Of a DNA stretch of 34,352 bases, positions 4,201 to 28,268 are shown piece after piece. Below the pieces are notes generated by a model. The model was not told the origin of the DNA. It searched no databases and was given only the letters and a program-made list of their open reading frames with translations. The DNA is from Psychrobium sp. (GTDB lineage Bacteria > Pseudomonadota > Gammaproteobacteria > Enterobacterales > Psychrobiaceae). Within the stretch, counting starts at the first letter, position 1; each line of letters begins with the position of its first letter. The stretch lies in NCBI GenBank assembly GCA_013214905.1, contig JABSRV010000011.1, forward strand, positions 1 through 34,352, read 5' to 3'. The translations under genes and the position numbers were made by a program.

Positions 4201-7200
4201 TGCTCAACAATGTCCGCACCAGCACTAAACTTAATGGTTTCAAAATTAAGAACCATATTCTGAATGTTGTTTTGATTGTTCAACCACTGTGTTCTAGTCA
4301 TATTCAAAGTAATGGTGTCGTCACCTGACTGACCATCAATAATATGATTTACCGTACCATGAATAGTTAAGCTATCGTTGCCATCACCAAGGCTTATATT
4401 AGCCTTAGTTGAACCGTCAATTAGAACATTGTCATTACCTTGACCAGTAAGAATGGCCGCCGCATCACCGCCAATGGTGATGGTGTCATTACCACTACCC
4501 ATGTTGATGGTATTAAACGTTTCGCCAGTCACCGTTATTGTATTATTACCATTGCTAGCGCTAATGTCTCCAAGTACATTTTGGCCAATATTTAATGTGT
4601 CATCGCCACTTCCTAATGCAATGGTGTGATTATTATCACCGCTAATGATCACTGTATCGTTACCAGCTAAGGTATCAATGCTTTCGGTAGTGGTGCTGAG
4701 TGTTAATGTATTATCTGCATTATTTAAAGGCTCTAGAACGGCTTCTTCATAATCAATGAGTTGCGTCGAATCATTAAAATTAATGATCTTGAAATTTAGA
4801 ACATTGCTTCGAATGTTATTTTCATTGGCTAACCACTGCGCCTGTGTAATGTTTAAGGTAATAGTATTGTTACCGCTACCACCATCAACCACATTATTTA
4901 CGCTGCCACCAATTATGATGGTGTCATTGCCGCCACCAAGTTGAATATTGGCGGTAGTCGAGCCAGCAATATTTATCGTGTCGTTACCCATACCAGCGTC
5001 AATGGCGTTAGCGTTACCACCGATGGTAAGACTGTCGTCACCGCTGCCCAGCGATATAGCGTCATTGGCACTAAATGCAATTGTAATCGCATCATCCTCT
5101 GCTCCACTGATTATCTCTGCCGTTGCTTGACCAGCAACTGTTAAAGTATTATTGCCTCGCCCTAAATTAGTGACATGTTGTAAATCCCCCGAAATAGTGA
5201 CGATATCGTTACCCGCTAGCGTGTTTATTTCCTGGGTTGTATGTCCGGTGATTACTACTGAATTGTTAGTATTGTCTAACGGCTCCATCACGCTTTCTTG
5301 GTAATCAACTAGTTGGCTACTGTCATTAAAGTTCAACGTTTTAAAGTTAAGAACCTTACTTCTAATGTCATTGGTATTGTCTAACCAATCTGCCTGACTG
5401 ATATTCAAGGTAATTGTGTTATTGCCCGTACCACCGTCGATAATATTGTTAACCACACCGTCAATTCGAACCGTATCGTTACCATCACCGAGCGTAATAT
5501 TATTAGTGGTAGAACCTGCAATGTACAGCGTATCATTTCCGGAGCCAGTATTAATGATGCTGGCATCACCGCCAATCGTAATAACGTCGTCGCCACCAGA
5601 AACATTAATATTACCTTGCGCATTCCCAGCGATAGTTATGACATCGTTTTCGTTACCTGAGTCAACATCACCAATGAGTTTGCCCCCTACCGACAATGTA
5701 TTGTTACCCGAACCCAAATTAACTGTGCCAGAATTACCAGCGATATTAACCGTATCATTACCATCGTTGGTAGTGATAGTACGGCTAAATGAACTATTAA
5801 TTGTAATGGTATCGTTACCGTCTGCGGTACTGAAGCTATCAACCAGCGTATCTACAAACGCATTATTTAAAGTAATGGTATCGCCATCGCTAAAGTTAAT
5901 GGTTTCAAAATTCACCACCAATGCTTGGATACCGTTAACGTTGTTATCCCATGCCTCTCTTGACATATTAAGGTTAATGATGTCGTCACCTAAACCGCCA
6001 TCTATGGTGTAATTCACCGCACCGGTAACGGTTATCTCATCATCGTTGTTGGTTAATTTCGCACCGGATATCGTAATGCCTTCAATACCAATATCAACTA
6101 CTGCACCACTGTAGATACTGATAACATATTCAGCTTCATTGGTTGAGCCATCTGCACTGGTAGCGCGAACGACAATGCTTTGATTACCTTCGGCTAATAA
6201 TGTGTTATTGCCAACGGTTACTCTGCCTGTGCTGCTATCTATTTGGAATAAACCAGCGGCATCATCAATAAGCTGATAGCTTATATCATCGCCGTCGGCG
6301 TCGGTCGCTAGAGACTCAATACCGACGTATGTGCCATTGGACGAGCTTATTTCAACTAAATTAACTTCAGAATCATTATCGATTACGGCGTCTATGGCAT
6401 TGGTGGCATTGCCTACAGGAGTGGGTGCATTACTGCCTACCGTGATGGTATTAACTTGTTCGGTAAAAAACGAATTGGAACTTGTGGCGCGAATAGTGAC
6501 TTGATAAGAATCATTTAATACACCGATCAAACTAGAGTCGGCAACGGTGACCACTCCGGTTATGCTGTTTATGATGAAACGGCCACTGGCGTTGTCGCTT
6601 AAACTATAAATCACTGAATTAGCAATGTCGTTATCAACGGCTAACGCGGTTACGCCAGTGTAAGCGCCTGTGACAGTATTAGCCGCAATAACATTGCTAT
6701 CGTCTTGATCGCTATCGGTAACCAATCCTATCGTATTATTGGTGTTATTATCTAAAATTGTCGCCACGATAATATTGCCGTTAAGCTCAATCGTTAACGA
6801 CTCTGTTGCTTCGATCGTATTGTCATTAACGGTCGGGATAATGATAGAGAAACTTGCAACGTTGCTGGGTACAATAAGTTGCCCACTAGGGACATCAAAG
6901 GTCACGCCATTACTATAGGTGAGGGGGGCCAAGTCAACATTTACATCGACGCCACTAAGTGAGAAATTAATGCCACTTAGCGTACTTAAGTTATCGAGCA
7001 GATCGACTATGACGGTAATTTCTTCCCCTTCTGTAACCGAACCTGACAGCGCTTCAAAGGCGATGTTGACGTTGGTTACTGGCCTGTTAGCTAGAATGTC
7101 AATGGTTACCGTGCTTTCGTTACTTGAACCATCGCTACTCGTTGCTCTAACGACGATATCTACCTTAGTAAACTCTATAAATAAGCTTGAACTAGCCACC

Positions 7201-10200
7201 GATACTAGTCCTGACGTTGCATCGATAGTAAATGCGCCACTAGCATCATCAATTAATTCGTAACTGACCACATCGCCATCTAAATCGATAGCTTGCATGC
7301 TTACGTGAATATCGCTGCTTGGAAGTGCATTGCCAGCTGTAGCATTGGCTTGCGTGTCAGTATCAACGAGAGCACTTATTGCATTGGTCGCACTAGCTGG
7401 TGGTCCAGGGTTGGTTGGAGCCGTAGCGCCCAACGTAATTGTAAAATCATTTGATGAACTTGAACTGTCGGGTCGAACGGCAACAACGGTAACATTGTAA
7501 TTTTCGCCTTGGCTACCCAAGACTGCACCTGCCGCTACTGTTATCACGCCCGTAGAGCTGTCAATGTCAAAGCGACTGGATGAATCATCGCTTAGGCTAT
7601 AAGTTATGTTATCGCCATCTAACGCAATGACCGAGGCTGTTATGCCAGTATATGTACCAGTAATCGCATTGTGAGCAATTACATTGCTATCATCATTATC
7701 GGTGTCAATAACTGTATTGCTGGCTAAGGCTTGCAGTTTGGTTATCGTATCCACCTCACTGCCATTATCTAAAGTGTCCTGCAATGCATTTTGTATCGCT
7801 GTCAAGTTACTATCGGTAATGCCGCCAATGCCTAAGCTTTCTAATTGTGCTTTGCTTGGCGTGCCAACTGTACCATTCGCTGCATCCATGACCGCGTTTA
7901 CCGCGTCACTGAGCAATTGAATGCCACTGATATTATCGACGTCCGTTGAGTCTTTAACATCAATCACATCACCTAGTAGTGACGCCTTGACTGAGTTATC
8001 GATACCGGTAACGCCGATGTTGTTGTAATCCGCAATGCTAGGATTGGTGGCATTATCGTCTATACCGTTTGCTGCGTCTAAAATCACTTGATAGCTATCA
8101 ACCAAGCTTTGAATCTCGCTGGTGGTATCAACGGCATCGCCATCAACATTTATGCTGTTAAGTGCATTATTAATTGCTGCTAGGTTATTGCTATCAACGT
8201 CGTTAACGAAGGCATCTTGGTAATCTGTTATTGCAGGCGTTGTAGCCGTTGCGGTATTGTTTTGCGCCGCATCGCTAATCATTGAGAGCGCTGTTGCGGC
8301 GTCATCTACTGCGCTGGTGACTAGGCTTTGTAACTCAACGAGGGTATCCACGCCGCTGCCATCATCGTTAGTGGCTTGCAGCGCATGTTGAATGGCGATT
8401 AAGTTGTCATCGGTGATACCGATAATGCCCAGACTTTCGAGCTGCGCTTTGGTTGGTGTATTAAGGACGCCTGCTGCCGTGTTCATCACCGCTTGCACCG
8501 CATCGCTTAGCGTTTGTATCTCACTAACGCTGTCGACATCAGTGCTGGCTTTGACATCCAGTACATCACCGAGCAACGAGGTTTCTACAACCGTATCCAT
8601 ACCGTTAACGCCAATATTGGCGTAATCGACAATGCTAGGCTTTGCTGCATCGTCGTCAAGTCCATTGGCCGCGTCTAAAATTGCTTGATAGCTATCAACC
8701 AGAGTTTGAATTTCACTGGTGCTATCAACGGCATTTTCGTCAATAGTAACGCTGTTAAGGGCATCGTTAATCGCTGCCAGATTATCGCTATCAACACCGC
8801 TAATGCCGGCGTCTTGATAATCGCTGATGGCAGGAGTACCTGCACTTGCGGTATCGTTTTTCGCCGCACTCGTAATGAGTTCAATAGCGAGATTTGCGTT
8901 GATAATCGCGGTATAAATAAGCGCTTGCAGCTCTTCAATACTATCGATTTCACTGCCGTCATCTGCGGTTTTTTGTAACGCGTTTTGCACCACAATAAGG
9001 TTGTCGTCAGTGATGCCGTTAAGGCCCAAGCTGTCTAACTGTTCTTTGCTTGGCGTGCCGACATTACCAGCCGCTGCATCGATCACGGCTTGCGCGGTAT
9101 CACTTAATGTTTGTATTTCGTCGATAGTATCGATATCTTCGACATCTTTTTTGCCAATGATATCACCCAGCAATGCGGTTTCTTGTGGTGACTCAATGCC
9201 TACAACACCAATATTTTTGTAATCTTCGGCTGATGGGCGGGCTGAGCTATCGGTCGAGCCATTTGCAATGTCTAAGATATGATTAAAGCTATCGACTAAA
9301 TCTTGTATTCCACCCGTTGTATCAACGTTATTGCCGATAATCGCGATGGTATTTAAAGCATCATTTATCGCGGCTAAATTGTCGGCGTCAACACCAGTAA
9401 CGCCCGCATCTTGATAGGTTTCGAGTGTTGGTGTCGCTGAACTAGCCGTATTGTCTTGCGCCGCTTGTGCAATGGCTTCAATAGCCTCTTTAGCTTTCTG
9501 TGCAGCGTCATTAACAACCGATTGCAATTCATCAAGTGTATCGACATCGCTACCATCATCGGCGCTGGTACGTAAAATATTTTGTACCAGTAACAGGTTC
9601 TCGTCGGTGACGCCGGTAATTCCTAAGCGCTCAAGTTGCTCTTTGCTTGGAGTATCATGTGCTCCTGCTGCTGCATCCATGACCGTTTGTACCAAGTCAC
9701 TTAACACTTGTATTTCAGCGACCGTATCGACGTCGGCTTGATATTTCGTATCGATGACATCGCCTAATAGAGAGCTTTTTTCGTTGCTATCTACTCCGGT
9801 AATACCTATGAGTTGATAATCTTGTGCATTGGTAACCGTGCCCGCGTTATCTATGCCATCTGCGTTATCTAAAATGCGGGCATAGACATCGACAATTTCT
9901 TGGATCTTGGTACTGGTATTAGTTTTGTCTGCGTCGACGGCAATGGTATTTAATACGCTGTTAATGCTGGCTATGTTACCTGTATGAATACCTGTAATGC
10001 CCGCGCGATCATAAAGGCTTATGGTCGGGGTATTATCAGTGGCACTATTCGCCTCAGCGATAAGACTGATAGCTTGCAATGCACTATTTAAATCGAGTAT
10101 GTCGTCGATGATTGTTTGTATTTCGTTGAAACTGTCAACACCACTGGCGTCATCGCTTGTTGACCTTATTTTCGCCTGGATCTGAGCGATAATTACATCG

Positions 10201-13200
10201 CTAACGCCTGTTAATCCTAACGCTTGTAACTGTTCTTTTGTGGGGGTATTTAGGATACCACTAGCCGCGCCAATAACAGCTTGCACTGCATCGCTAATGA
10301 TCTGTAGCTCAGGGGTCGTATCAATGGCCGCTGTGGGAAGTTGGTCAATAATTTCACTGATTAAGGCTAGCTCAGCAATGTTATCAAGCCCATGAATGCC
10401 TAAGTTTTGGTAATCTTGCTGTGTTGCTTGCTCAATGTCATCAGCAATACCGTCGGCAATCGCTAATAATTTATTATAACTATCAACAATGGCTTGGATT
10501 TTCACGCGGCTGTTGACGTTCTCACCGGCAATGACGGTGGTATTTAATACGCTATTAATGGCGTCTAAATTACCACTGCTTATGCCGCTGACGCCGGCGT
10601 CTCTGTATATTTGGACCGAAATGTTTTCTGCGGTTGCATCATCTAATTGAGCTGCTTGCACGATGGCGTCAATTGCTTGCGCATTCATCTGCACTGTATT
10701 GTTGATAAACGCTTGTAAATCCTCAAGACTAACAATGTCACTGCCGTCGTCACTTGACGCGGCTATCGCTGCATTGATTAGCGCGATATTTTCGTCGGTA
10801 ACGCCAGTCAATCCTAATAATGTTAATTGATGCTCGGTGACTTCTCCTTCACCTTTGGTCAGCTTGAATAACATATCAATGGCCTCGGCCATCGATTGCA
10901 ATTCTAAAAATTCATCCACTTGCTCTTGTTGTTTGAGATCGAGAATATCACTAAACAGAGAGGCGCGATTATTATCACTGATGCCCGCTAGACCAATCGC
11001 GCTATAGTCTTCTAACGACAATGAATTTCCATTATCGATATTGTCAGCGGTGTCTAATATCTGCTGATAAGCATCGACTAATGCTTGTACTTCCACTGCT
11101 GTGTTGGTGGCGGCACCTGTTAATTTTTGACTGTTTAACGCGCTGTTGATACTGCTAAGGTTATTGGTATTAACGCCAACAATGCCTGCGCGTTGATAGA
11201 CATTGATTGCTGGTGTATCAGCGCTTGCATTATCCAACTGCGCGGCATCGCTGATTAGCTGCAAGGCCGCATTTTCATCGATAATATTATCGATAATTAC
11301 TTGTAATTCATCAATCGAATCTACTTCTTGTCCATTGTCGTCGGTACTTTGTATTATCTGCTGGATTTGGGTGAGGATAGTATCGGTAATCCCGAGTAGT
11401 CCAATAGATTCTAGTTGGCTTTTGCTTGGTGTATTTTGTTGCCCAGTTGCCGCGTCCATGACCGCTTGCACTGCGTCACTAAGTGATTGCAGCTTAGTGA
11501 CCGTATTGACATCGTTATTACTTAATTCGTCAATGGCGTCACCGAGTAACTGGTTTTTGGTCTCGCTGTCGATGCCTGTAATACCTAAGTTACTGTAATC
11601 TTGTTGGGTTGGACTCTCGTCGTCGTCATTGATGCCGTCGGCCGCGGCTAAAATTTTGTTATAACTATCGACAATGGTTTGAATTTCGGCAGCAGAATCG
11701 GCATTTTCACCATCAATAAATTCAGTGTTTAATACACTGTGGATAGCCTCGATATTTCCGCTGCTTACTCCACTAATCCCCGCATTTTTATAGACATCTA
11801 TGGTTGGCGAGTAAATCGTTGCACTGTCGTATTGTGCAGCATCAGCTAGACTGTCTAGTGCGTCTTGGGTAGCGCTGATTACATTGTTGATTAATGTTTG
11901 TAAGTCATCTAGGCTCGCCACATCGCTGCCATCATCACTTGAGGCCGCCAGTGCATTATTGATGAGGATAATATTCTCATCATCCACCCCGTCAATGCCA
12001 ATGGCTGCTAGCTGCTCTTGAGTCAGCGAACCTTCGCCCTTAGCGAACGACATTAGCGAGTCAACTATATCGGCTAGGGCTTGCAACTCGTCGAGTGTAT
12101 CAATGTCAGTTTTTAATTTAACGTCGATAATGTCACCAAGTAATTCGCCCTTTAGCGCATTATCGATGCCGACAATACCGATGGCGCTGTATTGTAATTG
12201 GCTTGGTTTTTCATCGTTGTCATCACTGCCGTCTGCTACCGCTAAAATGACAGTGTAGGCATCGACGATGGCCTGCACTTCGGCAACCGTATTAGTGGCC
12301 GAGCCGTTTAGTGCTGGACTGTTTAATGCACTGTTTATACTAGCGATATTATTTGTGTTAACACCGTTAACGCCAGCATTCTGGTAGTTGGCAATGGTTG
12401 GAGTGCTATCGGTTGCATTATTATTTTCGGCAGCTTGGCTAATCGTTAATAACGCGGTATTTTCATCGACAACATCATCGATTAAATCTTGTAATTCATC
12501 AATTGAATCGATGCCGGATCCGTCATCATCGCTTTCATTAATCGCTTGCTGAATGTCTGCCAGATTTTCGTCGCTAATACCCGTTAAACCAAGTGTTTCA
12601 AGTTGTTCTTTGGTTGGCACGTTTGGGAGGCCAGTTGCCGCATCAAACACCGCTTGTGCGGCGTCACTGATCGCTTGCAGCTCAGTGACCGTATTAACGG
12701 CACCACTTGGTAATTCATCGATAATATCACCAATAAATTCGACCAACTTCGGTGTATCAATGCCATCAATACCTAAGTTTTCATAGTCTTGTTGCGTTGG
12801 TTTTACATCGTTGTCATTGATGCTGTCCGCCGCCGCAAGAATGGAATTATAACTATCAACTATTTCTTGTAATTCTGCGGTAGTATCAGTGTCTTGACCG
12901 GTAATTAGAGGATTATTTAGCACACTATTGATAGCATCAATATTACCTTCGCTAATACCGATAACGCCAGCATCTTTGTATACGTCTAACAGATCGTGCT
13001 CATCGGAAATCGCGTTATCTTGAGCCAATTGACTCAAGGTCTCGAGCGCGTCTTTGCTGGTGTTAAGAACAGGGTTTAATAAATCTTGCAGTTTGCCTAA
13101 ATCGCTAATGTTACTGCCATCGTCATTAGATGCGGCGATAATAGCATTGACCACGTCAATATTGTCTTGCATTATGCCGGTGATGCCTAAACTTTCAAGT

Positions 13201-14579
13201 TGTTCAACGCTAACCGTGCCTTCGCCTTTTGCAGCGTTTAATAAGTCACTAACCGCACTGACTAATTGCTGTAACTCATCAAACGAATCAACGTCAGTTG
13301 GCGATTTACGATCAATCACTTGACCTAATAAATTAGCTTTGATTGCATTGTCTATCTCGGTCAAACCCAAGGCATTGTATTGCTGTTGACTAGGTGTTTC
13401 ATCGTTATCAGCATGGCCATCGGCCGCCGATATAATCATTTGGTAAGTATCGACAAGTGTTTGAATTTTTTCACGACTGTCAAGCGCTGAGCCATTGAGG
13501 TTGTCGCTATTTAGTGCGCTATTAATGGCGTCAATGTTATTACTGTCGACACCAGTGATGCCCGCTTGTTCGTAATGTTCGACGGCAGGGGAGCTGGCTG
13601 TCGCATTATCTTGCTCAGCGGCTTTACTGATTAGCTCTACCGCGAAATCAGACACCGATACACTAAAAATAATGGTCTGTAACTTACCGACGCTGTCGAT
13701 GCTGCTTGAGTCGTTGGCAGAGTTTTGTATCGCTAATTGAATGGCGGGCAAATTATCATCGGTAACGCCTTTGATGCCTAATGCTTGAAGTTGTTCCTTA
13801 CTAGGAGTGCCCTCTACACCCTGACTTGCCGAAATAACCGCTTGTACTGCATCGGCTAATAATTGCAGTTTAGCAATAGTATCCACATCATCTACACGCT
13901 TTGCGTCAATAACATCGCCTAACAATAAGACTTCGCTGGCTAAGTCTATGCCAGTCACTCCAATGTGCTCATAATCCAGTGCTGACGCCATAGGGTCACC
14001 ATCGCGTTGACCGTCTGCGGCGTTCAAAATGATGCTGTAACTATCGACTAGACTCTGTGATTCGACAACTCGACCACCTCTTTGAATCTCTTCAAGGGCA
14101 CTCAACATAGCGTCCAGATTGTCTTTATTCAGGCCGTGAATTTCTTCGGTTGATTGATACTCCTGCAGCTCGGGAGTTACTATGACAGTCTTCTCCGTAT
14201 TGAATGACCGAAATCCTGCAGCGGCTAATGACTCATGTTTATTCAGTTCTATGCTGGCATAAGAGTGATGTTGTTTATTTAAAGGGGAGACGGTGACCGT
14301 GCGCGTGTAGTCACTAAACGACGATTCGGTGCCAATGACATCTATCGTCGGCTCATCATTATTTTTTGCCAGTACTTCAATACTTGCATAGTTGATGGTT
14401 GTTTCGGAACCGTCTTCAAAGCGCAAAATTAAAATAGAATGCTTGCCGAGTGCTAGCTTGTCTCCGGATGTTAGATATATGCCAGCAATTAATGGAGTAT
14501 CTGACGATAGGTTGTTTATATGGCCAACTACGGTGACAACAAAAGATTTTTTAGAAATTGAAATAGCTTTCACGAGCAA
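1212..14579 (-). CDS. giant LapA/BapA-type RTX adhesin, type I-secreted
   Basis: About 4,455 residues without a stop. Order of parts: residues 1-70, a degenerate retention module; 119-122, AAAG, a LapG-like cleavage motif; 203-2288, thirty-two tandem modules of ~65 residues; ~2289-2824, four cadherin-like domains with a Calx-beta-like domain in the middle; ~2834-3924, a glycine/Asp-rich beta-roll region; ~3937-4110, two further cadherin-like domains; 4159-4270, five EF-hand-like calcium loops; then an acidic tail ending LPIDLIL. There is no Sec signal peptide. This agrees with type I secretion by a C-terminal signal, and the likely role is cell-surface attachment or biofilm formation (inferred). 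The start is TTG at 14579 or GTG at 14573; AAGGAAGG upstream serves either, at ~6 or ~9 nt. No transporter, LapD or LapG gene is in the window. The repeat-rich sequence could hide assembly collapse, so copy number should be treated with care. Confidence 0.9.
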   Translation of the reverse strand: MLVKAISISKKSFVVTVVGHINNLSSDTPLIAGIYLTSGDKLALGKHSILILRFEDGSETTINYASIEVLAKNNDEPTIDVIGTESSFSDYTRTVTVSPLNKQHHSYASIELNKHESLAAAGFRSFNTEKTVIVTPELQEYQSTEEIHGLNKDNLDAMLSALEEIQRGGRVVESQSLVDSYSIILNAADGQRDGDPMASALDYEHIGVTGIDLASEVLLLGDVIDAKRVDDVDTIAKLQLLADAVQAVISASQGVEGTPSKEQLQALGIKGVTDDNLPAIQLAIQNSANDSSSIDSVGKLQTIIFSVSVSDFAVELISKAAEQDNATASSPAVEHYEQAGITGVDSNNIDAINSALNSDNLNGSALDSREKIQTLVDTYQMIISAADGHADNDETPSQQQYNALGLTEIDNAIKANLLGQVIDRKSPTDVDSFDELQQLVSAVSDLLNAAKGEGTVSVEQLESLGITGIMQDNIDVVNAIIAASNDDGSNISDLGKLQDLLNPVLNTSKDALETLSQLAQDNAISDEHDLLDVYKDAGVIGISEGNIDAINSVLNNPLITGQDTDTTAELQEIVDSYNSILAAADSINDNDVKPTQQDYENLGIDGIDTPKLVEFIGDIIDELPSGAVNTVTELQAISDAAQAVFDAATGLPNVPTKEQLETLGLTGISDENLADIQQAINESDDDGSGIDSIDELQDLIDDVVDENTALLTISQAAENNNATDSTPTIANYQNAGVNGVNTNNIASINSALNSPALNGSATNTVAEVQAIVDAYTVILAVADGSDDNDEKPSQLQYSAIGIVGIDNALKGELLGDIIDVKLKTDIDTLDELQALADIVDSLMSFAKGEGSLTQEQLAAIGIDGVDDENIILINNALAASSDDGSDVASLDDLQTLINNVISATQDALDSLADAAQYDSATIYSPTIDVYKNAGISGVSSGNIEAIHSVLNTEFIDGENADSAAEIQTIVDSYNKILAAADGINDDDESPTQQDYSNLGITGIDSETKNQLLGDAIDELSNNDVNTVTKLQSLSDAVQAVMDAATGQQNTPSKSQLESIGLLGITDTILTQIQQIIQSTDDNGQEVDSIDELQVIIDNIIDENAALQLISDAAQLDNASADTPAINVYQRAGIVGVNTNNLSSINSALNSQKLTGAATNTAVEVQALVDAYQQILDTADNIDNGNSLSLEDYSAIGLAGISDNNRASLFSDILDLKQQEQVDEFLELQSMAEAIDMLFKLTKGEGEVTEHQLTLLGLTGVTDENIALINAAIAASSDDGSDIVSLEDLQAFINNTVQMNAQAIDAIVQAAQLDDATAENISVQIYRDAGVSGISSGNLDAINSVLNTTVIAGENVNSRVKIQAIVDSYNKLLAIADGIADDIEQATQQDYQNLGIHGLDNIAELALISEIIDQLPTAAIDTTPELQIISDAVQAVIGAASGILNTPTKEQLQALGLTGVSDVIIAQIQAKIRSTSDDASGVDSFNEIQTIIDDILDLNSALQAISLIAEANSATDNTPTISLYDRAGITGIHTGNIASINSVLNTIAVDADKTNTSTKIQEIVDVYARILDNADGIDNAGTVTNAQDYQLIGITGVDSNEKSSLLGDVIDTKYQADVDTVAEIQVLSDLVQTVMDAAAGAHDTPSKEQLERLGITGVTDENLLLVQNILRTSADDGSDVDTLDELQSVVNDAAQKAKEAIEAIAQAAQDNTASSATPTLETYQDAGVTGVDADNLAAINDALNTIAIIGNNVDTTGGIQDLVDSFNHILDIANGSTDSSARPSAEDYKNIGVVGIESPQETALLGDIIGKKDVEDIDTIDEIQTLSDTAQAVIDAAAGNVGTPSKEQLDSLGLNGITDDNLIVVQNALQKTADDGSEIDSIEELQALIYTAIINANLAIELITSAAKNDTASAGTPAISDYQDAGISGVDSDNLAAINDALNSVTIDENAVDSTSEIQTLVDSYQAILDAANGLDDDAAKPSIVDYANIGVNGMDTVVETSLLGDVLDVKASTDVDSVSEIQTLSDAVQAVMNTAAGVLNTPTKAQLESLGIIGITDDNLIAIQHALQATNDDGSGVDTLVELQSLVTSAVDDAATALSMISDAAQNNTATATTPAITDYQDAFVNDVDSNNLAAINNALNSINVDGDAVDTTSEIQSLVDSYQVILDAANGIDDNATNPSIADYNNIGVTGIDNSVKASLLGDVIDVKDSTDVDNISGIQLLSDAVNAVMDAANGTVGTPSKAQLESLGIGGITDSNLTAIQNALQDTLDNGSEVDTITKLQALASNTVIDTDNDDSNVIAHNAITGTYTGITASVIALDGDNITYSLSDDSSSRFDIDSSTGVITVAAGAVLGSQGENYNVTVVAVRPDSSSSSNDFTITLGATAPTNPGPPASATNAISALVDTDTQANATAGNALPSSDIHVSMQAIDLDGDVVSYELIDDASGAFTIDATSGLVSVASSSLFIEFTKVDIVVRATSSDGSSNESTVTIDILANRPVTNVNIAFEALSGSVTEGEEITVIVDLLDNLSTLSGINFSLSGVDVNVDLAPLTYSNGVTFDVPSGQLIVPSNVASFSIIIPTVNDNTIEATESLTIELNGNIIVATILDNNTNNTIGLVTDSDQDDSNVIAANTVTGAYTGVTALAVDNDIANSVIYSLSDNASGRFIINSITGVVTVADSSLIGVLNDSYQVTIRATSSNSFFTEQVNTITVGSNAPTPVGNATNAIDAVIDNDSEVNLVEISSSNGTYVGIESLATDADGDDISYQLIDDAAGLFQIDSSTGRVTVGNNTLLAEGNQSIVVRATSADGSTNEAEYVISIYSGAVVDIGIEGITISGAKLTNNDDEITVTGAVNYTIDGGLGDDIINLNMSREAWDNNVNGIQALVVNFETINFSDGDTITLNNAFVDTLVDSFSTADGNDTITINSSFSRTITTNDGNDTVNIAGNSGTVNLGSGNNTLSVGGKLIGDVDSGNENDVITIAGNAQGNINVSGGDDVITIGGDASIINTGSGNDTLYIAGSTTNNITLGDGNDTVRIDGVVNNIIDGGTGNNTITLNISQADWLDNTNDIRSKVLNFKTLNFNDSSQLVDYQESVMEPLDNTNNSVVITGHTTQEINTLAGNDIVTISGDLQHVTNLGRGNNTLTVAGQATAEIISGAEDDAITIAFSANDAISLGSGDDSLTIGGNANAIDAGMGNDTINIAGSTTANIQLGGGNDTIIIGGSVNNVVDGGSGNNTITLNITQAQWLANENNIRSNVLNFKIINFNDSTQLIDYEEAVLEPLNNADNTLTLSTTTESIDTLAGNDTVIISGDNNHTIALGSGDDTLNIGQNVLGDISASNGNNTITVTGETFNTINMGSGNDTITIGGDAAAILTGQGNDNVLIDGSTKANISLGDGNDSLTIHGTVNHIIDGQSGDDTITLNMTRTQWLNNQNNIQNMVLNFETIKFSAGADIVEQNAQLSHNFTTTQTNIVTGSEDDTVTVVGGITYVNLGEGDNALTASAVVYDITAGAGNDTINVNSTEWGNSNIINLGDGDNSFTTTGKSGIKNFSTGSGNDIITIGTNLGYGGSNLQAFNTGAGDDTVLVGNKVFANVNLGDGNNSFTLTAGNMTGILTTASGNNTIDIQAGSISGALTTGAGDDVVHVQVNTAAVTLGEGNNTFTSAGHIAGIFNAGDGNDSVSAATSGTTVNLGNGVNSFTLTGAASGTVNVGDGNDTVTIGTSATTVHLGDGENTLTVGTSLTNVIGGSGKDTVTVGGILTDAKLGEGNNVLTVGSTTYGITAGSGNDIVNVNLTSWGNSNIINLGDGDNTFTTTGQSGIKTFSTGSGDDTITIGTHLGYGASNLQLLNTGAGNDTIIVATNVFATANLGAGQDYFKLGGNITGTVDGGADHDAIRLNITLSAWNANTGTIQSKVSNFEQLAFNDVTLITQDLAEDVANGMDAGIHAALNDLNESNIAYSIVNSSGDPIIGGPFRVDAITGVVTVSDNSQINYENKTVETVFIKRTLTDLSSSIEEFIVNIGDVNEAPLINNIVTTTQEGVALTIADISDEDNNSSVTLLSGSGTVIFSGNNIVYTPTPGYFGTASVKIVVEDDVGLKTEQTIAIDVQLIDSDNENENARAQAPGFATQNLGWGHMFDKSPSWNNHDVIMNSPLVLDLDNDGIETLVNSEGVQFDIDADGDNDQTGWVNTDDGLLVRDINNDGIINDATELFGQETVKNDGSKAIDGFDVLAEFDSNNDGVINALDDQWAELLAWQDKNSDGITQDGELLTLSEADVSEIALTYSHSTETDNGNTIGLVGSYLDNTGESQQIADVWFSYEDVVYEYDDLTSTVIVGLDDDKLISRYKDSFEQQQQTKYADSLIDEMAQELADLPINELLQDSSDDNLAHYLALNFSDLVPESTSTLDKFELSDQDKLINEGISGILISEQPWVTVPDNNIFDQDDMLPIDLIL
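1768..2105 (-). other. C-terminal EF-hand-like calcium-binding block
   Basis: Residues 4159-4270 contain five EF-hand or dockerin-like loops: DLDNDGIET, DIDADGDND, DINNDGIIND, DSNNDGVIN and DKNSDGITQDGEL. They sit in the frame SPLVLDLDNDGIE ... GWVNTDDGLLVRD ... ELFG that is commonly found just before the C-terminal secretion signal of large type I-secreted adhesins. Calcium in the medium probably drives folding after export. Confidence 0.85.
2810..6080 (-). repeat. beta-roll region with sparse RTX-like repeats
   Basis: Residues ~2834-3924 hold dozens of G-x-G-(N/D)-(D/N)-T and L-G-x-G-(N/D)-N-x-(L/F) motifs spaced about 18-21 residues apart, not every 9 as in classical RTX repeats. Each is followed by a short I-x-x-x-G strand. 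Five times the series is broken by a conserved segment of the form W-x-x-N-x-x-x-I-x-x-x-V-x-N-F-(E/K)-x-(I/L)-x-F. A calcium-loaded beta-roll or beta-helix is the likely fold (inference). Confidence 0.8.
2965..4125 (-). repeat. duplicated ~350-bp block within the beta-roll
   Basis: A segment at 3778-4125 is repeated at 2965-3312, about 813 bp apart. Both encode LGEG(D/N)N, ITAG(A/S)GND, WGNSNIINLGDGDN, FTTTG(K/Q)SGIK, FSTGSG, LGYG(G/A)SNLQ and NTGAG(D/N)DT in the same order over ~115 residues. The copies are clearly diverged at the DNA level, so the duplication is not recent. The stretch between them is made of shorter 18-20 residue repeats. Confidence 0.8.
6105..7715 (-). other. cadherin-like and Calx-beta-like domains of the adhesin
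   Basis: Four cadherin-like domains carry the hallmark of an aspartate-rich opening (DTDNDDSN, DSDQDDSN), a Y-x-L-x-D-D-A-S-G-x-F-x-I-D-x-x-T-G-V-V-T-V core and a VRATSSDGS strand. The third such domain starts near 6725. Between the second and third lies a Calx-beta-like domain (VTEGEEITVIVDL, NDNTIEATESLTIEL). These domains typically bind calcium at their junctions and stiffen a long stalk. Two more domains of this kind sit near 2250-2770, after the beta-roll. Confidence 0.75.
7716..13973 (-). repeat. 32 tandem ~65-residue modules in the adhesin
   Basis: Residues 203-2288 consist of modules beginning Y/L-x-x-(A/L/I)-G-(I/V)-x-G-(I/V) and containing a (E/K)-(I/L)-Q-x-L-V-D-type helix. Three types alternate strictly: type a (start LGI/IGI, LLGDVIDxK, ending TPSKEQ or KGEG), type b (start LESLGI, IQxAL, DDGS, ending AAQ...ATxxTP) and type c (AGVxGV, NLAAINDALN, VDSYxxILDAADG). 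There are 11 a, 11 b (the last partial) and 10 c. The a-b-c triad is ~198 residues (594 bp). Helical heptad-like spacing suggests three-helix modules resembling GA-type bundles, which is inference. No Pfam name is claimed. Confidence 0.9.
14214..14225 (-). other. predicted LapG-type cleavage motif AAAG
   Basis: Codons GCC GCT GCA GGA encode Ala119-Ala-Ala-Gly122 in the context ESLAAAGFRS. LapG-family periplasmic proteases cut LapA-like adhesins between two alanines of a (T/A/P)AAG motif roughly 100 residues from the N-terminus, after the retention module. Both sequence and position fit. Cleavage itself is inferred. Confidence 0.6.
14391..14546 (-). other. retention-module-like N-terminal domain of the adhesin
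   Basis: Residues ~12-63 follow the pattern of the LapA N-terminal retention module: a beta-rich stretch with a VVGHINNL start, then PLIAGIYLTSGDKLALG and ILRFEDGSETTI. The order is a substrate-like strand, a G-x-x-L-x-x-GD turn, then a F-x-DGS-x-x-TI hairpin. In LapA this domain plugs the TolC-like pore and holds the adhesin on the cell. The match is to the pattern, not to a computed profile, and the domain is shorter than usual. Confidence 0.55.
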
Positions 14580-22173: not shown

Positions 22174-23031
22174 TTATTGCTCGATAAAATCTAAGATGGC
22201 ATGCGCAACGGCAACCGGCGATTCCATCGGTAGTAAATGATGTTGGGCTTCAAATTCAATAAATTTTTCATGAGGTTGAATCGTTTGCCATTTTTTCCAC
22301 GCTGCGGTTGACAAAAACTCCGAATGCTCGGCCTTAATGCCCAAGGTTGGTATCGAAAGCTTTCGTAAATAGCGCCATGAACGTGGCAGATTTTGATAAA
22401 ACCACGCTTCCCAGGCTTTAGGGTATGTTAAGTGCCATTGCTCATCGATCTGTTTCGTCCCGCCAATGATATATTGCCATAAGGCGGTATCGGGCAAGGC
22501 TTTAAAGGCACGTTTTCTGCGATGAAAATCAAAAGCTTGTTGCAGACTAGGCCACTGATCTGGTCTGTTTAAGGTTTTAGTCACCAATTTTATTTTTTTC
22601 ATCATCGATTTGGGTACTATTCTGGCAAACTCGACCAAATAGCTTGGCATAAAAATAGGATCTAAGAATATGATTTTTTTAAATAAATCAGGTTCTTTAA
22701 TTGCTGCTCTTAAAATAACAATACAACCCATAGAGTGTCCAATGGCGATCATAGGCTGTTTTGTTTCTGCAACACGGGCACGGGCAAACTTTAAAAAATC
22801 ATCAACCAATAAAGGCCACTGATTTGCGGCGTTAGGATCTGATGTATCCCAACAAGGGCGCGATAATGGTGCCCATACAGTGCAACCTTTTAATTGCTGC
22901 AGCATAGGCAGGTAACAATGACTCGGATAACCATTAGCATGCACAAATAGGCATGGCTGGGTACCAAGTTGCAGTTTTAAGTAAGGAATATTTGTACTGT
23001 CGCAAATTTCGGTGTTTTCACTATGGGGCAT
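22174..23031 (-). CDS. alpha/beta hydrolase
   Basis: 285 residues with the alpha/beta-hydrolase layout: HANGYP near residues 31-36 (oxyanion-hole region), the nucleophile elbow GHSMGC with Ser100, and a catalytic His in QHHLLPMESP (264 or 265). The acid residue is probably in the AEHSEF segment or the loop before it, but I cannot fix it. No signal peptide or membrane segment is seen, so a cytoplasmic esterase-like enzyme is likely; the substrate is unknown. It is divergent from the next hydrolase gene across only 46 bp, so the two probably share a control region. The ribosome site is weak. Confidence 0.85.
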   Translation of the reverse strand: MPHSENTEICDSTNIPYLKLQLGTQPCLFVHANGYPSHCYLPMLQQLKGCTVWAPLSRPCWDTSDPNAANQWPLLVDDFLKFARARVAETKQPMIAIGHSMGCIVILRAAIKEPDLFKKIIFLDPIFMPSYLVEFARIVPKSMMKKIKLVTKTLNRPDQWPSLQQAFDFHRRKRAFKALPDTALWQYIIGGTKQIDEQWHLTYPKAWEAWFYQNLPRSWRYLRKLSIPTLGIKAEHSEFLSTAAWKKWQTIQPHEKFIEFEAQHHLLPMESPVAVAHAILDFIEQ

Positions 23032-23077: not shown

Positions 23078-24025
23078 ATGACACAATGGCTCGGCAATTT
23101 TCAACAGCAGCAGTTTATCGGTAACGCTGGCGTAACCATCAGCTGTGCCCACATGATACAAGCTAAACCATCTGACGCGTTGATTATTGTTAATGGCCGC
23201 ATAGAAAGTTACCTAAAATATCAAGATTTGGCTAATGAATTTTACAGACAAGGGCTAAGTGTTTATATGTACGATCATCGAGGCCAAGGTTTATCGGGGC
23301 GTCAATTAAGTAATAGTCACAAGGGGCATGTCGATAGCTTTGATGACTATGTTGATGATTTAGAACTATTTATTGATAAGGTTGTCTTGACGCATAATAA
23401 GTTTTTTATGATGGGACATTCGATGGGCGGCGCAATAGCTTGCCAATTTTTATTAACTAAACAACATGTTATTAATAAACTCGTATTGAGTAGCCCAATG
23501 CACGGTATCATTTTACCAGCACCTAAGTTAATCATTAAATGGCTCACCAAACTCTTTATTGCGATTGATAGTTTATTGCACCGTGAACCAAGTTTTGTTA
23601 TCGGCGGCCATGCTTATATTAATGTACCTTTTGCTGACAATGAGCTGACGCAATGTAAAACGCGTTATGATAATTTTCGTCAGATTTATCAAAACCAGCC
23701 ACAAATTAAGTTAGGTTCTGTGACCAATCAGTGGCTGCAACAAGCGCTTATCGCCACCGATACGATATTGAAAAACGCCGAACAATTTGAGGTGGCCACG
23801 CTACTGCTACAAGCTGGCGATGAGAGTATTGTTGATAACAAGGCGCAAGATCGATTTGCAAATAGTCTGCCGCCATCATTAATCGACAAAATTTTCTTGC
23901 AAGGGGCGCGTCATGAAATATTGTTTGAACGCGACGAATATCGCCAACCGGCGCTTGATGCTATCTTTAAATTTTTCAACGCACCAACTAGCACACCAAC
24001 AAAAAAACATAAGGCGATGACTTGA
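23078..24025 (+). CDS. PldB-like alpha/beta hydrolase (lysophospholipase family)
   Basis: 315 residues of the serine aminopeptidase S33 / lysophospholipase L2 type. The triad is Ser115 (GHSMGG), Asp248 (QAGDESIVDN) and His279 (ARHEILFERD). The segment YDHRGQGLSG and the following KGHVDSFDDYVDDL are typical of PldB and monoglyceride-lipase relatives. No signal peptide is visible. It likely cleaves an acyl ester of a lysophospholipid or glyceride at the inner membrane (inference). It is the first gene of a three-gene cassette; its last four bases overlap the next start (TTGA). The cassette arrangement argues for a joint role with the two following genes. Confidence 0.88.
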   Translation: MTQWLGNFQQQQFIGNAGVTISCAHMIQAKPSDALIIVNGRIESYLKYQDLANEFYRQGLSVYMYDHRGQGLSGRQLSNSHKGHVDSFDDYVDDLELFIDKVVLTHNKFFMMGHSMGGAIACQFLLTKQHVINKLVLSSPMHGIILPAPKLIIKWLTKLFIAIDSLLHREPSFVIGGHAYINVPFADNELTQCKTRYDNFRQIYQNQPQIKLGSVTNQWLQQALIATDTILKNAEQFEVATLLLQAGDESIVDNKAQDRFANSLPPSLIDKIFLQGARHEILFERDEYRQPALDAIFKFFNAPTSTPTKKHKAMT

Positions 24026-25143
24026 AACTATCTCATTTATTTGTTCTCAGTATTTTTGCTATTAGCTTACAAGCTAAGGCTGAGTCTATTTTCTCACTAG
24101 AGCAGCAACCTAATATAGGCACAATGACGGCGCAGTCATATACGCATCTTTGTGAAGTTGCTGACGGTACCTTGGCTTATTTAAACAAGGGTGAGAAGTA
24201 TGATCCCAAAGTAATTCATGGCGGCAAGTTAAATCAATCTCTGGTTACCCTAACGCGGGTTAAAGAGACGCTAGCGTTTATTTGTCGGGTGGTGGCAGAG
24301 GACAAAGCACAAGGTCGAGAGTCACGCCTTGCAAATGCTGCGTTTATTGCGCAACATTTTACCAGCATTCGCTGGCGACCTAATAAAAAGCAGGCGGCAC
24401 CATTCGCCCATAAAAAGCCTTTATTACAGCAAATACCCGACGACAAGATCTTGTTAACTAAGTATTACATTAAAAAAGCCAAAGGTAGTCCGATAAAAAC
24501 AGCAGAGACACCACACGCCTTATATGCTATTCCTCATGATGAACAAGATCTTAGCCTAGAACAGGCTGAAAAAAATAAAAGCACGCTAACGCGTTTTCAT
24601 TACACTAAGCAGCAAGTATTGAGTGGTATTTTACAGCGTAAAAAATTGGCCAAACCATTGATTTGGCTGTCTCGAGATGATCTCGAAGATACGCTAATGC
24701 AAGGCACGGTGAAGATTGAAACAGGCAATGATTCTGCAAAGCGTTATTACAATGTGCATCGCAATAACGGCATTGGCTATCAGCGCAACGTGAAAAAGAA
24801 ACAGCAACAACGCTATTGGTATTTTAAGCAAACAAGCAGTGTGATGGGTTATGGTAAAGATGCTCATTATAAAATACCCATTCATCCACTGGTGACTGTC
24901 GCTGGTGATCTTGAATTTTTCGGCCTAGGTAAGTTAATTCTATTAACTCATCAAGGGCAAAGTCGCTTAACCGTGTTAGCGGATACGGGCGGGGCGTTTG
25001 CCAATAACCAATATCAATTGGATTACCTTGGTGGTTATTTTTTTAACTGGCAAGACTATATTAAAACCTATCGCCATTTCCCTGATTATTTCGAGGCGCG
25101 TTTACTGTTGCTTAAACCGCAAGAGATCGCAGTGCCTCAGTGA
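24022..25143 (+). CDS. secreted protein with MltA/3D-like C-terminal domain
   Basis: 373 residues with a Sec signal peptide (cut probably after ...LQAKA, residue ~20). The C-terminal third resembles the double-psi barrel of MltA and 3D-domain proteins: IPIHPLVTVAGDLEFFGLG, then LADTGGAF with Asp321 and a second Asp at 334 before YLGG. In MltA-type lytic transglycosylases such a pair of aspartates sits at the active site, so a role in cutting peptidoglycan in the periplasm is possible. The N-terminal ~200 residues are not recognised. The TTG start at 24022 is preceded by AAGG and overlaps the upstream stop by 4 nt; the stop overlaps the next start. Confidence 0.65.
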   Translation: MKLSHLFVLSIFAISLQAKAESIFSLEQQPNIGTMTAQSYTHLCEVADGTLAYLNKGEKYDPKVIHGGKLNQSLVTLTRVKETLAFICRVVAEDKAQGRESRLANAAFIAQHFTSIRWRPNKKQAAPFAHKKPLLQQIPDDKILLTKYYIKKAKGSPIKTAETPHALYAIPHDEQDLSLEQAEKNKSTLTRFHYTKQQVLSGILQRKKLAKPLIWLSRDDLEDTLMQGTVKIETGNDSAKRYYNVHRNNGIGYQRNVKKKQQQRYWYFKQTSSVMGYGKDAHYKIPIHPLVTVAGDLEFFGLGKLILLTHQGQSRLTVLADTGGAFANNQYQLDYLGGYFFNWQDYIKTYRHFPDYFEARLLLLKPQEIAVPQ

Positions 25144-27134
25144 TGAATAAAGCAGTATGGATAGCTAATCACAAAGTTGATATGCAGCGCGGTGAAGTCA
25201 CTATTGCGCAAACCACGCGAGCGATCGAACCTCGGGCGTTAAGTGTATTACGGGTTTTAATTGCCGCCAATGGTGATGTGGTGACCCAACAGCAATTGTT
25301 AGATGAAGTCTGGGGTGAGGTGGTGGTTGCGCCTAATGCGTTGCAACGCTGCATAACTCAGCTTCGTAAGGTGTTTGACGATAATGCCAAACAGCAATTA
25401 GTGATTAAGACCCACCCTAAGCTTGGTTATAGTTTAGTGGCGACTGTATCTTCAGCACCAATCAAACATTCAATCGCTCACTACAAGCGTTGGTTAGGCG
25501 TATTATTTATGTTGGTTGCGGTGGGATTAAGTACCATTTATTACCAACAAGAACAGTCTGTTGAAGATCTCTCTTATACAAAACTGTTGCCATTAACCAG
25601 CAGTGATGCCGCCGAGCGTGGCAGCGCGTTGTCTGAAAATAACCTATCACTTGCTTTTATTCGCCGCATTAGTCAAAACAACGAACAACTTGTCGTTCGA
25701 GATATGATGACGGGTGAAGAACGTGTGCTGCTACAACATCAGCGTTTTAAAGGCGGCTTGTCGTTTGCAGATAATGGTCTACAGATTAGTTATGCCACTA
25801 TTGAAACAATGCATAGGGTGAAGTGCTCGCGACTGATGTCCGTTAATATCGCAACGAAAATAGAACAACAATTATTAGGCTGTGATGACGCTTTCAACCA
25901 CTCTCCGCAATGGCTTGACCCGCAACAGCTAATATTCATTCGCCAAGCGAAAAATGGTAACAGTGAATTGATTCAGTTAAATTTGGCTGACAGCAGTCAA
26001 CAACACATTGGCGGCTTGCTCGGTAATGTTGAAGGTTTTTCTTACTCGAAAGAGAATCGAATCATCGCGCTAACAATCCGCCGAAAGCAGTCATCGACCT
26101 TGTTACTGGCTAAATTTGAGGGGCAATATTTACGGAGGATTAAGTCGTGGCCATTGTTGATGCACATTCCTGTTTATCCGCAATGGCAAACTCCATCGCG
26201 TATTGTATTAGCACATCAACAAAGCATTTTTTGGTTTGATCTAAATGGCGAACAAGGACAACTGTCGATTTTGAGTCATCAAGATATACGCCGACTATTA
26301 CCTTATGATAAGCAAATGATTGTAGAGTTAGGCCAACGTGATATTGATGTGGTACAGCAGAATTATAAGTCAGCAGTTATTGATAGCGAGATTGTTGCAC
26401 GCTCGCCAAGCATTGAGCGCTCGGCGCAGTTTAAGCCACATAGTGACGCAATAAGCATGTTGTCGCAGCGCAGTGGTTTAGCGCAAATATGGATTACTGA
26501 CCAAGGTTCAGTTAAGCAACTTACTCATCATCACAGCGCTATCAATAGTTATCTATGGTCAAGTGATGGTCACCGCCTAGTTTATTTGGTTGGTGGAGAG
26601 TTGTTTTATCTTGACCTGAAAAACGGTAAAACTTCGGCGTTGTTTAAGCGCGATAAAGTGATACAGCTGATGCAGTGGGTCACCGACAAAACAGGTGAGC
26701 GGCTTTTGCTTAATGTGCTTAAGGACGATAGGCAACAGGTTGTCAGTTTGAATTTGAATGATTTATCGCTGAGCATTGAATATGACGGAACTAGCAATTG
26801 GGCACAATACAGCGATAACAACGAGCTATTCATTGATAACGAACAAGGCAATGTATTGCTGATTAAACAAGGCAAGTTACGAGCGATGCCTGCGTTAAAT
26901 AAGATGAAGTTACAGTGGCGTTATTACTGGCGTCAAGGTCGGTTATATATGCAAGATAAGCATTTTACATTGTGGTCTTTTGATCCAACTACTGATCTAA
27001 CTACAGAGCAATTAGTCTTGGTTGGTCAATATGATGAGCAAGCTATTATGATGACCGATATCTCACCAAGCAAGTTTCGCTTGCTTAGTGACAAATATAT
27101 CGGAGACAAAACAGAGCTGATGTTATTGCGCTAA
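25143..27134 (+). CDS. CadC-like membrane transcriptional regulator with periplasmic propeller-like domain
   Basis: 663 residues from ATG 25143 (a GTG at 25140 adds one). Residues 1-103 form an OmpR/CadC-type winged helix (RALSVLRVL, VTQQQLLDEVWG, recognition helix near NALQRCITQLRKVF, ending HPKLGYSLVATV). One membrane segment follows (residues 118-135), then ~525 residues with repeated beta-strand and W/D-containing motifs such as WSSDGHRLVYL, like the WD40/TolB-type propellers of PD40 proteins. It probably senses an envelope signal and binds DNA while membrane-bound. The TGATG overlap with the previous gene indicates coupling, and the natural target is the cassette itself. The 3' end overlaps the opposing esterase gene by 12 bp. 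Confidence 0.88.
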   Translation: MNKAVWIANHKVDMQRGEVTIAQTTRAIEPRALSVLRVLIAANGDVVTQQQLLDEVWGEVVVAPNALQRCITQLRKVFDDNAKQQLVIKTHPKLGYSLVATVSSAPIKHSIAHYKRWLGVLFMLVAVGLSTIYYQQEQSVEDLSYTKLLPLTSSDAAERGSALSENNLSLAFIRRISQNNEQLVVRDMMTGEERVLLQHQRFKGGLSFADNGLQISYATIETMHRVKCSRLMSVNIATKIEQQLLGCDDAFNHSPQWLDPQQLIFIRQAKNGNSELIQLNLADSSQQHIGGLLGNVEGFSYSKENRIIALTIRRKQSSTLLLAKFEGQYLRRIKSWPLLMHIPVYPQWQTPSRIVLAHQQSIFWFDLNGEQGQLSILSHQDIRRLLPYDKQMIVELGQRDIDVVQQNYKSAVIDSEIVARSPSIERSAQFKPHSDAISMLSQRSGLAQIWITDQGSVKQLTHHHSAINSYLWSSDGHRLVYLVGGELFYLDLKNGKTSALFKRDKVIQLMQWVTDKTGERLLLNVLKDDRQQVVSLNLNDLSLSIEYDGTSNWAQYSDNNELFIDNEQGNVLLIKQGKLRAMPALNKMKLQWRYYWRQGRLYMQDKHFTLWSFDPTTDLTTEQLVLVGQYDEQAIMMTDISPSKFRLLSDKYIGDKTELMLLR

Positions 27135-28268
27135 GTCTGTCAGCAAAGACTGTATCCAGCGCTGTCCATGGCCATTATTATTTTTCTTGGCAACCTTTAA
27201 CGCTGTATTTAGCGTGTCTTTAGCGGCAGACATTTGCTTGTTTTGTTGCTGCGCGTTTGCGAGTCGGCTCAAGTAATAAAGGTTGTCAGGTTTGCTAAGC
27301 ACGGCTTGTTGCATTGATGAAACCGCGGCTGAAAATTGTTTTTTTTGTATTTGCAATTGGCTTAAGTCGAGCATGGTACTGGCGCTAGACACCGCATAAC
27401 CATACTTACGCTGCAATGTGGAAAAGTACTTTGTTACCGATTGACTGCCGCCTGCTAAAAACTGCTTAATGTCTTTCGGCTGACGATCTGCAAATAATCC
27501 CTCTAGCGCTAATGGCAACGCAGTGACAGCGGCTGTGTAATAGTTGATCGCGCTTAGATCGATAAAATGGGTGTTTTTCTTGTTAGCGCTTTTTCGCAGC
27601 GTGTTAAACAAAGGTTTGTTTTGCACAAAATCACCCAAGGTGACATATACATAAGGCGAAAGGTGTTTGTTGCTGCCCTTTGAGTTTGCTAAGACAGTTT
27701 GCAATCTTGTCACAAAATCAGTTTTGTCTAAAACCAACGCCGGATTAACGCTAACATAAGCATTGAACAACTGCGGCGCACTGGCCAACACTCCCAACGC
27801 AAGATTGGCATCGGTTGAATAGCCTTCAATAATTCTAAATGGCTGGGTTTTAAAGTGTTTATCAATATAGGGCAATATTTCCTGCTGCAATACTTTAATC
27901 GCCAGCGCGGTATCGATGCCAGATGCAGCGGCGTCTTTATGCTGCGGTGAGTCCAAGTCACGAATGTTGGGTAAACCAACAATAATCAACTTTGGGATCG
28001 GGCCAAAATCGATATGGCTTAACCAGTCTAATTGTTTTTGCATTAATGCCATGCGGCGGCTATCACTGTTGCTAAAAATAACCGGATAACGCTGTATGTT
28101 AGTCGCGTCATATCCGGTGGGAAAAATGACTGTTAGTTGCAGCGTTTGTTTGGTTAGTGCTGATTGTATCGACACCGTGTTGGTTCTTGCATCAGCGGCA
28201 GTATCTTGTGCGTTAGCGAATTGAACGCTAAGCAGCAAGGTTAAAGAAAGTAACAGACGGTAAATCAT
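27123..28268 (-). CDS. exported esterase-like protein with TPR-like C-terminus, possibly inactive
   Basis: 381 residues with a Sec signal (cut after FANA, residue 20) and an esterase-D-like alpha/beta hydrolase domain (to ~260), followed by a helical region with TPR-like helices at ~305-370. The nucleophile elbow reads GYSTD (Ser151), so the usual second glycine is Asp153. At the position where the family has its catalytic His near the end of the domain (N-H-x-S-V-x-x-x-A-L), the sequence is INYYTAAVTALPLALEGL, with tyrosines. It may therefore be a binding protein rather than an enzyme. GGAG precedes the ATG. It faces the CadC-like gene and could be linked to it, though this is only positional. 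Confidence 0.75.
   Translation of the reverse strand: MIYRLLLSLTLLLSVQFANAQDTAADARTNTVSIQSALTKQTLQLTVIFPTGYDATNIQRYPVIFSNSDSRRMALMQKQLDWLSHIDFGPIPKLIIVGLPNIRDLDSPQHKDAAASGIDTALAIKVLQQEILPYIDKHFKTQPFRIIEGYSTDANLALGVLASAPQLFNAYVSVNPALVLDKTDFVTRLQTVLANSKGSNKHLSPYVYVTLGDFVQNKPLFNTLRKSANKKNTHFIDLSAINYYTAAVTALPLALEGLFADRQPKDIKQFLAGGSQSVTKYFSTLQRKYGYAVSSASTMLDLSQLQIQKKQFSAAVSSMQQAVLSKPDNLYYLSRLANAQQQNKQMSAAKDTLNTALKVAKKNNNGHGQRWIQSLLTDLAQ

Follow-up and report, generated by a model that had tools for sequence, protein, structure and literature searches.

A divergent MltA-type gene, sometimes paired with a ToxR/CadC-type regulator gene, in a genus-specific pldB neighbourhood of Psychrobium

The window examined here is a 34,352-nt stretch at the start of contig JABSRV010000011.1 from a Psychrobium draft genome (3.9 Mb, 447 contigs). 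Three ORFs follow one another on its plus strand: gene 1, a pldB-like alpha/beta hydrolase gene of the lysophospholipase L2 family (23078..24025, 315 aa); gene 2, which putatively encodes a divergent MltA-type lytic transglycosylase and begins with TTG (24022..25143, 373 aa); and gene 3, which encodes a ToxR/CadC-type transmembrane transcription regulator and runs from either 25140 or 25143 to 27134 (664 or 663 aa, respectively). Genes 1 and 2 share the start-stop overlap TTGA (24022..24025, 4 bases), at which most relatives have a gap. Genes 2 and 3 meet on the same strand in TGATG (25141..25145), with an overlap of 1 base when the regulator starts at the ATG at 25143 and of 4 bases when it starts at the GTG at 25140, and similarly tight spacing occurs in G006 and G007. 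For gene 2, initiation at TTG is credible: the signal peptide is retained, and relatives have an ATG at the equivalent place. On the minus strand, an alpha/beta hydrolase gene (22174..23031) diverges from pldB and is kept beside it throughout the genus, and an esterase/TPR gene (27123..28268) converges with gene 3 and lies downstream of it in the window, G006, G007, and G008; both are regarded as neighbours only. Promoter and terminator scans gave signals at or below shuffled expectation. The three ORFs and both overlaps were thus as the original prediction had described them, and the ORFs, overlaps, and domain identities are each beyond chance; the three-gene arrangement is the part that is not general.

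Gene 1 matched Hydrolase_4 in Pfam (1.1e-55), and its best NCBIfam match, over almost its whole length, was PRK10749 lysophospholipase L2 (2.8e-78), in agreement with the PldB-like identity proposed earlier. It differs from PldB in falling below the equivalog cut-off (263.2 bits, with 362 needed). It is the only strong pldB-type copy in its genome, and a pldB match was found in 33 of 39 relatives, mostly as one strong copy and in varied contexts. In all ten genus-level genomes inspected, pldB diverged from the same alpha/beta hydrolase gene. Judged by its family, gene 1 appears to be an ordinary envelope-lipid gene.

The product of gene 2 had been described as a secreted protein with a lytic-transglycosylase-like end. 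In Pfam, its MltA match remained under the cut-off (E=2.5e-4, 21.5–22.9 bits vs 24.3) and the 3D domain was present only as a trace (0.078); meanwhile, 16 of 16 aligned relatives matched MltA at E < 1, and five relatives from the same family passed the cut-off. A sequence search of solved structures, profile included, returned no match, and MltAs were found by the fold search alone. The AlphaFold model (pLDDT 88.8) matched E. coli MltA (2pi8) over 273 residues (Z 21.4, 4.3 Å), and all 11 top structural entries were MltAs (Z 17.1–21.4), with the next unrelated entry at Z 6.5. A Foldseek match to MltA (3.7e-16) and a profile-profile comparison with canonical MltA (98.3% probability, E 1.2e-14) gave the same assignment. 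Every solved MltA was matched, over residues 20–367 of the model, in accord with the MltA fold of a double-psi beta-barrel with an inserted domain. By this model, gene 2 encodes a full-length divergent MltA; in other words, the predicted resemblance takes in the whole protein and is stronger than the “end” first claimed.

Gene 2 shares with canonical MltA (lytic transglycosylase family 2) the whole-chain fold, the 3D-type domain, and the T, Y, Q, and DxGGA aspartate residues. It differs in an insert that is 32 residues shorter (the conserved Y253 and F268 are separated by 14 residues, against 46–47), in an N-terminal region of its own with conserved C44 and C88, and in a two-residue extension ahead of the presumed catalytic Asp. 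Unlike E. coli MltA, which is anchored as a lipoprotein, it has an ordinary signal peptide without a lipobox. The lipobox pattern was absent from the first 60 residues of all ten gene 2 members, a rough test since the pattern also missed three canonical MltA rows, whose starts may be mis-set. Among other MltA-like proteins, Bd3285 of Bdellovibrio is likewise a divergent MltA whose C-terminus carries a 3D domain. Bd3285, however, is predicted to be a lipoprotein, has a long disordered N-terminus, and acts on prey (PMC10127604), and gene 2 carries no hint of predation.

Gene 3 contains a Trans_reg_C domain (9.2e-15, residues 29–99 of the GTG-start form) followed by a hydrophobic stretch at about 117–135 (hydropathy peak at 117), which coincides with a helix at 115–138 in the model. 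The predicted layout comprises a winged helix (1–103), one transmembrane helix (~115–138), and an all-beta, propeller-like periplasmic part (148–662). This is the architecture of the CadC/ToxR regulators, with an OmpR-type winged helix at the N-terminus, one transmembrane helix, and a C-terminal periplasmic domain, and it bears out the CadC-like membrane regulator with a large periplasmic domain that had been predicted. What sets gene 3 apart is a periplasmic part of ~515 residues that is propeller-like; the word “propeller” does not occur in a survey of CadC/ToxR regulators (PMC10269533). For the AlphaFold model (pLDDT 81.7, pTM 0.58), the fold search was led by tandem beta-propeller proteins at a low TM of ~0.3, and NCBIfam gave TolB and Dpp5 propeller matches. 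The modelled periplasmic part is therefore at most described as propeller-like, probably with two propellers, because the TM is only ~0.3. Matches to gene 3 were common across the order, many of them covering the DNA-binding part only. Our literature search found no link between a lytic transglycosylase and a CadC-like regulator.

Only four genomes (the window, G006, G007, and G008) have gene 3 directly after gene 2. A regulator next to gene 2 was absent from G001, G002, G004, G005, and CAKZQF, and G003 was left out because of a contig end. In G008, the regulator gene is split by a contig break (contigs C84 and C145; ends of L021 and L075), and the contig end carries the sequencing-adapter sequence CTGTCTCTTATACACATCT, an assembly artefact that yields the false peptide SEMCIRDR. 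The trees are divided on a single gain of the regulator: with labelled outgroups, one change suffices for the genomes with the regulator in the gene 2 tree, although they are interspersed with other members of the genus, but two changes are required in the tree of the neighbouring hydrolase.

Metallo-beta-lactamase-fold genes occur near the regulator in two contexts, namely, between pldB and gene 2 (L018:4521-5429, L019:5296-6216, L021:5432-6340, L022:4138-5010) and divergent from a regulator paralogue (L083:4576-5715, L084:7415-8551, L085:3562-4698). Their best NCBIfam match was a SoxH-related quinoprotein relay hydrolase, under the cut-off, and the two sets share 27–32% identity with each other. 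It is possible, although not the reading that we favour, that the regulator is an orphan of a large paralogous family, placed beside gene 2 by chance and with a different target, such as the nearby metallo-beta-lactamase-fold gene. Six matches to gene 3 in its own genome, mostly partial and located in other contexts, are consistent with such an origin, as is the regulator paralogue in G006, G007, and G008 that is divergent to a second metallo-beta-lactamase-fold gene. Against it, four genomes have retained the adjacency to gene 2 within a few bases even though the regulators have diverged strongly, the others being only 28–33% identical to that of the window, and the window retains the gene 2-3 pair at a locus without a metallo-beta-lactamase-fold gene.

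The 14-base sequence CTTTGACATACTAG, which contains TTGACA, has exactly one copy in each of G001, G006, G007, and G008, immediately upstream of gene 2 (L018:5429-5442, L019:6216-6229, L021:6340-6353, L022:5212-5225), and has no occurrence in the genome of the window. As a shared operator of the regulator it was rejected, since it is also present in G001, which lacks the regulator, and is absent from the window. A sequence with TTGACA at this place is expected of gene 2's own promoter region in those genomes, and CTTTGACATACTAG is more likely part of a promoter than a regulator site.

The roles of the MltA active-site residues have been described (PMC4499186, PMC8562663). T99, Y101, Q162, D261, and D297 of MltA align with T146, Y148, Q227, D296, and D321 of gene 2. 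Ten diverse members and three canonical MltAs all share T146, Y148, Q227, and D321 without variation; D296 is replaced by N in two of the ten members and hence is not invariant. S184 and Y200, two substrate residues for which full conservation in MltA has been described (PMC8562663), are replaced by T229 and V245, respectively, in all ten gene 2 members, so that the activity or specificity of gene 2 could differ. The catalytic aspartate of MltA, D308, most likely corresponds to D334 of gene 2, judging from the shared motif D-hydrophobic-hydrophobic-x-G (D-Y-L-G-G in gene 2 vs D-I-Y-Q-G in E. coli MltA), and D334 is invariant. This correspondence needs the preceding loop to be two residues longer; MAFFT and hhalign leave D334 out of register, and an ungapped profile alignment places D308 opposite Q332.

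Gene 2 is single-copy in nine of nine genus genomes. Within the order, it was found in 25 of 295 sampled genomes, all in families f1, f2, and f7, so that two families besides that of the window carry it, and strong matches to canonical MltA were found in 111 of the 295, none of them in these three families, where the weak MltA matches are gene 2 itself. The two forms did not co-occur in any of the 295 genomes (25 vs 111), a mutual exclusion that follows family lines and is no independent statistical test. Elsewhere in the class, two genomes of family f68 carry gene 2, and both MltA forms coexist in that family. A counterpart with 44% identity lies on a Legionella adelaidensis plasmid, and a search in phages gave no match. 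With six SLT-domain matches in its own genome, gene 2 would be one of several transglycosylases there. In two f68 genomes, G335 and G475, gene 2 and an Amidase_2 gene, which encodes a peptidoglycan enzyme, touch each other (L054:1459-3205, L055:845-2571), and this fits a peptidoglycan role. The Amidase_2 product is weakly similar to AmpD and has what appears to be a signal peptide. Synteny with the canonical mltA-tcdA pair was also considered: a ThiF-family gene after gene 2 in G004 and G005 resembled tcdA, but its NCBIfam assignment is PRK08223 and not TcdA, which is the assignment of the gene beside canonical MltA in G018, and the argument for positional orthology was therefore dropped.

These observations bear on whether gene 2 encodes an enzyme or, with its catalytic Asp displaced, a non-catalytic MltA-fold protein that binds or scaffolds glycan strands. 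The latter could account for the position of D308 opposite Q332, the two substitutions at the substrate positions, and the replacement of the first Asp by N in some members. We consider it unlikely, however, given the invariance of D334 within a motif common to canonical MltA and of the T, Y, Q, and D321 positions, and given that gene 2 replaces canonical MltA in its lineages and abuts an amidase gene in two genomes.

Signs of joint conservation were confined to genes 2 and 3. Among nine genomes of the genus and one more MAG, the overlapping adjacent trio was found in the window only, and pldB occurs nearly everywhere without the others; the expectation that the three genes are kept as one unit in relatives thus largely failed. 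The order hydrolase (−), pldB (+), X, gene 2 (+) was observed in seven of the ten genomes looked at, where X is nothing in the window and in CAKZQF (L013; pldB and gene 2 abut), a minus-strand metallo-beta-lactamase-fold gene in G001, G006, G007, and G008, and a minus-strand putative lipoprotein gene in G002. In G003, G004, and G005, pldB lies elsewhere and is not adjacent to gene 2. Of the grouping in the original prediction, the pairing of genes 2 and 3 holds in four genomes, but the tie to pldB does not, an opposite-strand gene splitting pldB off in five. The trio is mostly a local arrangement, and the idea that pldB belongs to a conserved unit under joint regulation is unsupported. An operon of all three genes for self-regulated envelope remodelling or damage response, whose regulator would sense wall or membrane damage and induce both the lipid and the wall enzymes, is consistent with the shared strand and overlaps in the window and with the nearness of pldB to gene 2 in most of these genomes, CAKZQF included, but is improbable in view of the restriction of the overlapping trio to the window, the intervening opposite-strand genes, and the three genomes with pldB apart.

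We therefore favour, as the probable reading, a periplasmic MltA-type transglycosylase that in one sub-group has an adjacent regulator and that is encoded in a genus-specific pldB neighbourhood. This neighbourhood would consist of an ordinary pldB near the single MltA gene of the genus, and the usual separating genes would be missing in the window, leaving pldB and gene 2 to overlap. The product of gene 2, presumably secreted, would be a soluble periplasmic lytic transglycosylase, as its fold and most catalytic-site positions suggest; it probably cleaves peptidoglycan glycan strands to give 1,6-anhydro-muropeptides, and would stand in for canonical MltA in its lineages. For the regulator, the likeliest role is to sense some periplasmic ligand or protein via its propeller-like domain and to control its own two-gene unit, gene 2 included. 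pldB would be involved, if at all, only via transcription read-through in the genome of the window, and self-regulated envelope repair is a conjecture.

More tentatively, a previously unnamed MltA subfamily, soluble and with a compacted substrate-binding insert, may have taken the place of canonical MltA in several lineages of the Gammaproteobacteria and may, in one subset, be directly controlled by its own adjacent propeller-bearing ToxR-type sensor. If so, the pair would form a two-gene circuit tying wall cleavage to a periplasmic signal. Canonical MltA in E. coli has no clear mutant phenotype (PMC10127604). In this genus, a divergent form is the only MltA, in single copy throughout, and in some genomes is paired with a one-protein sensor; it would offer a natural handle on the signal to which MltA-type activity answers. 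Since the proposed cassette is not conserved as a unit, it matters little; of more interest are the divergent branch of MltA and the regulator paired with it. Elsewhere in the window, a minus-strand ORF of 4455 aa (1212-14579) is repetitive, with “DAGVTGVD...AINDALN”-like repeats, and resembles a giant surface adhesin.
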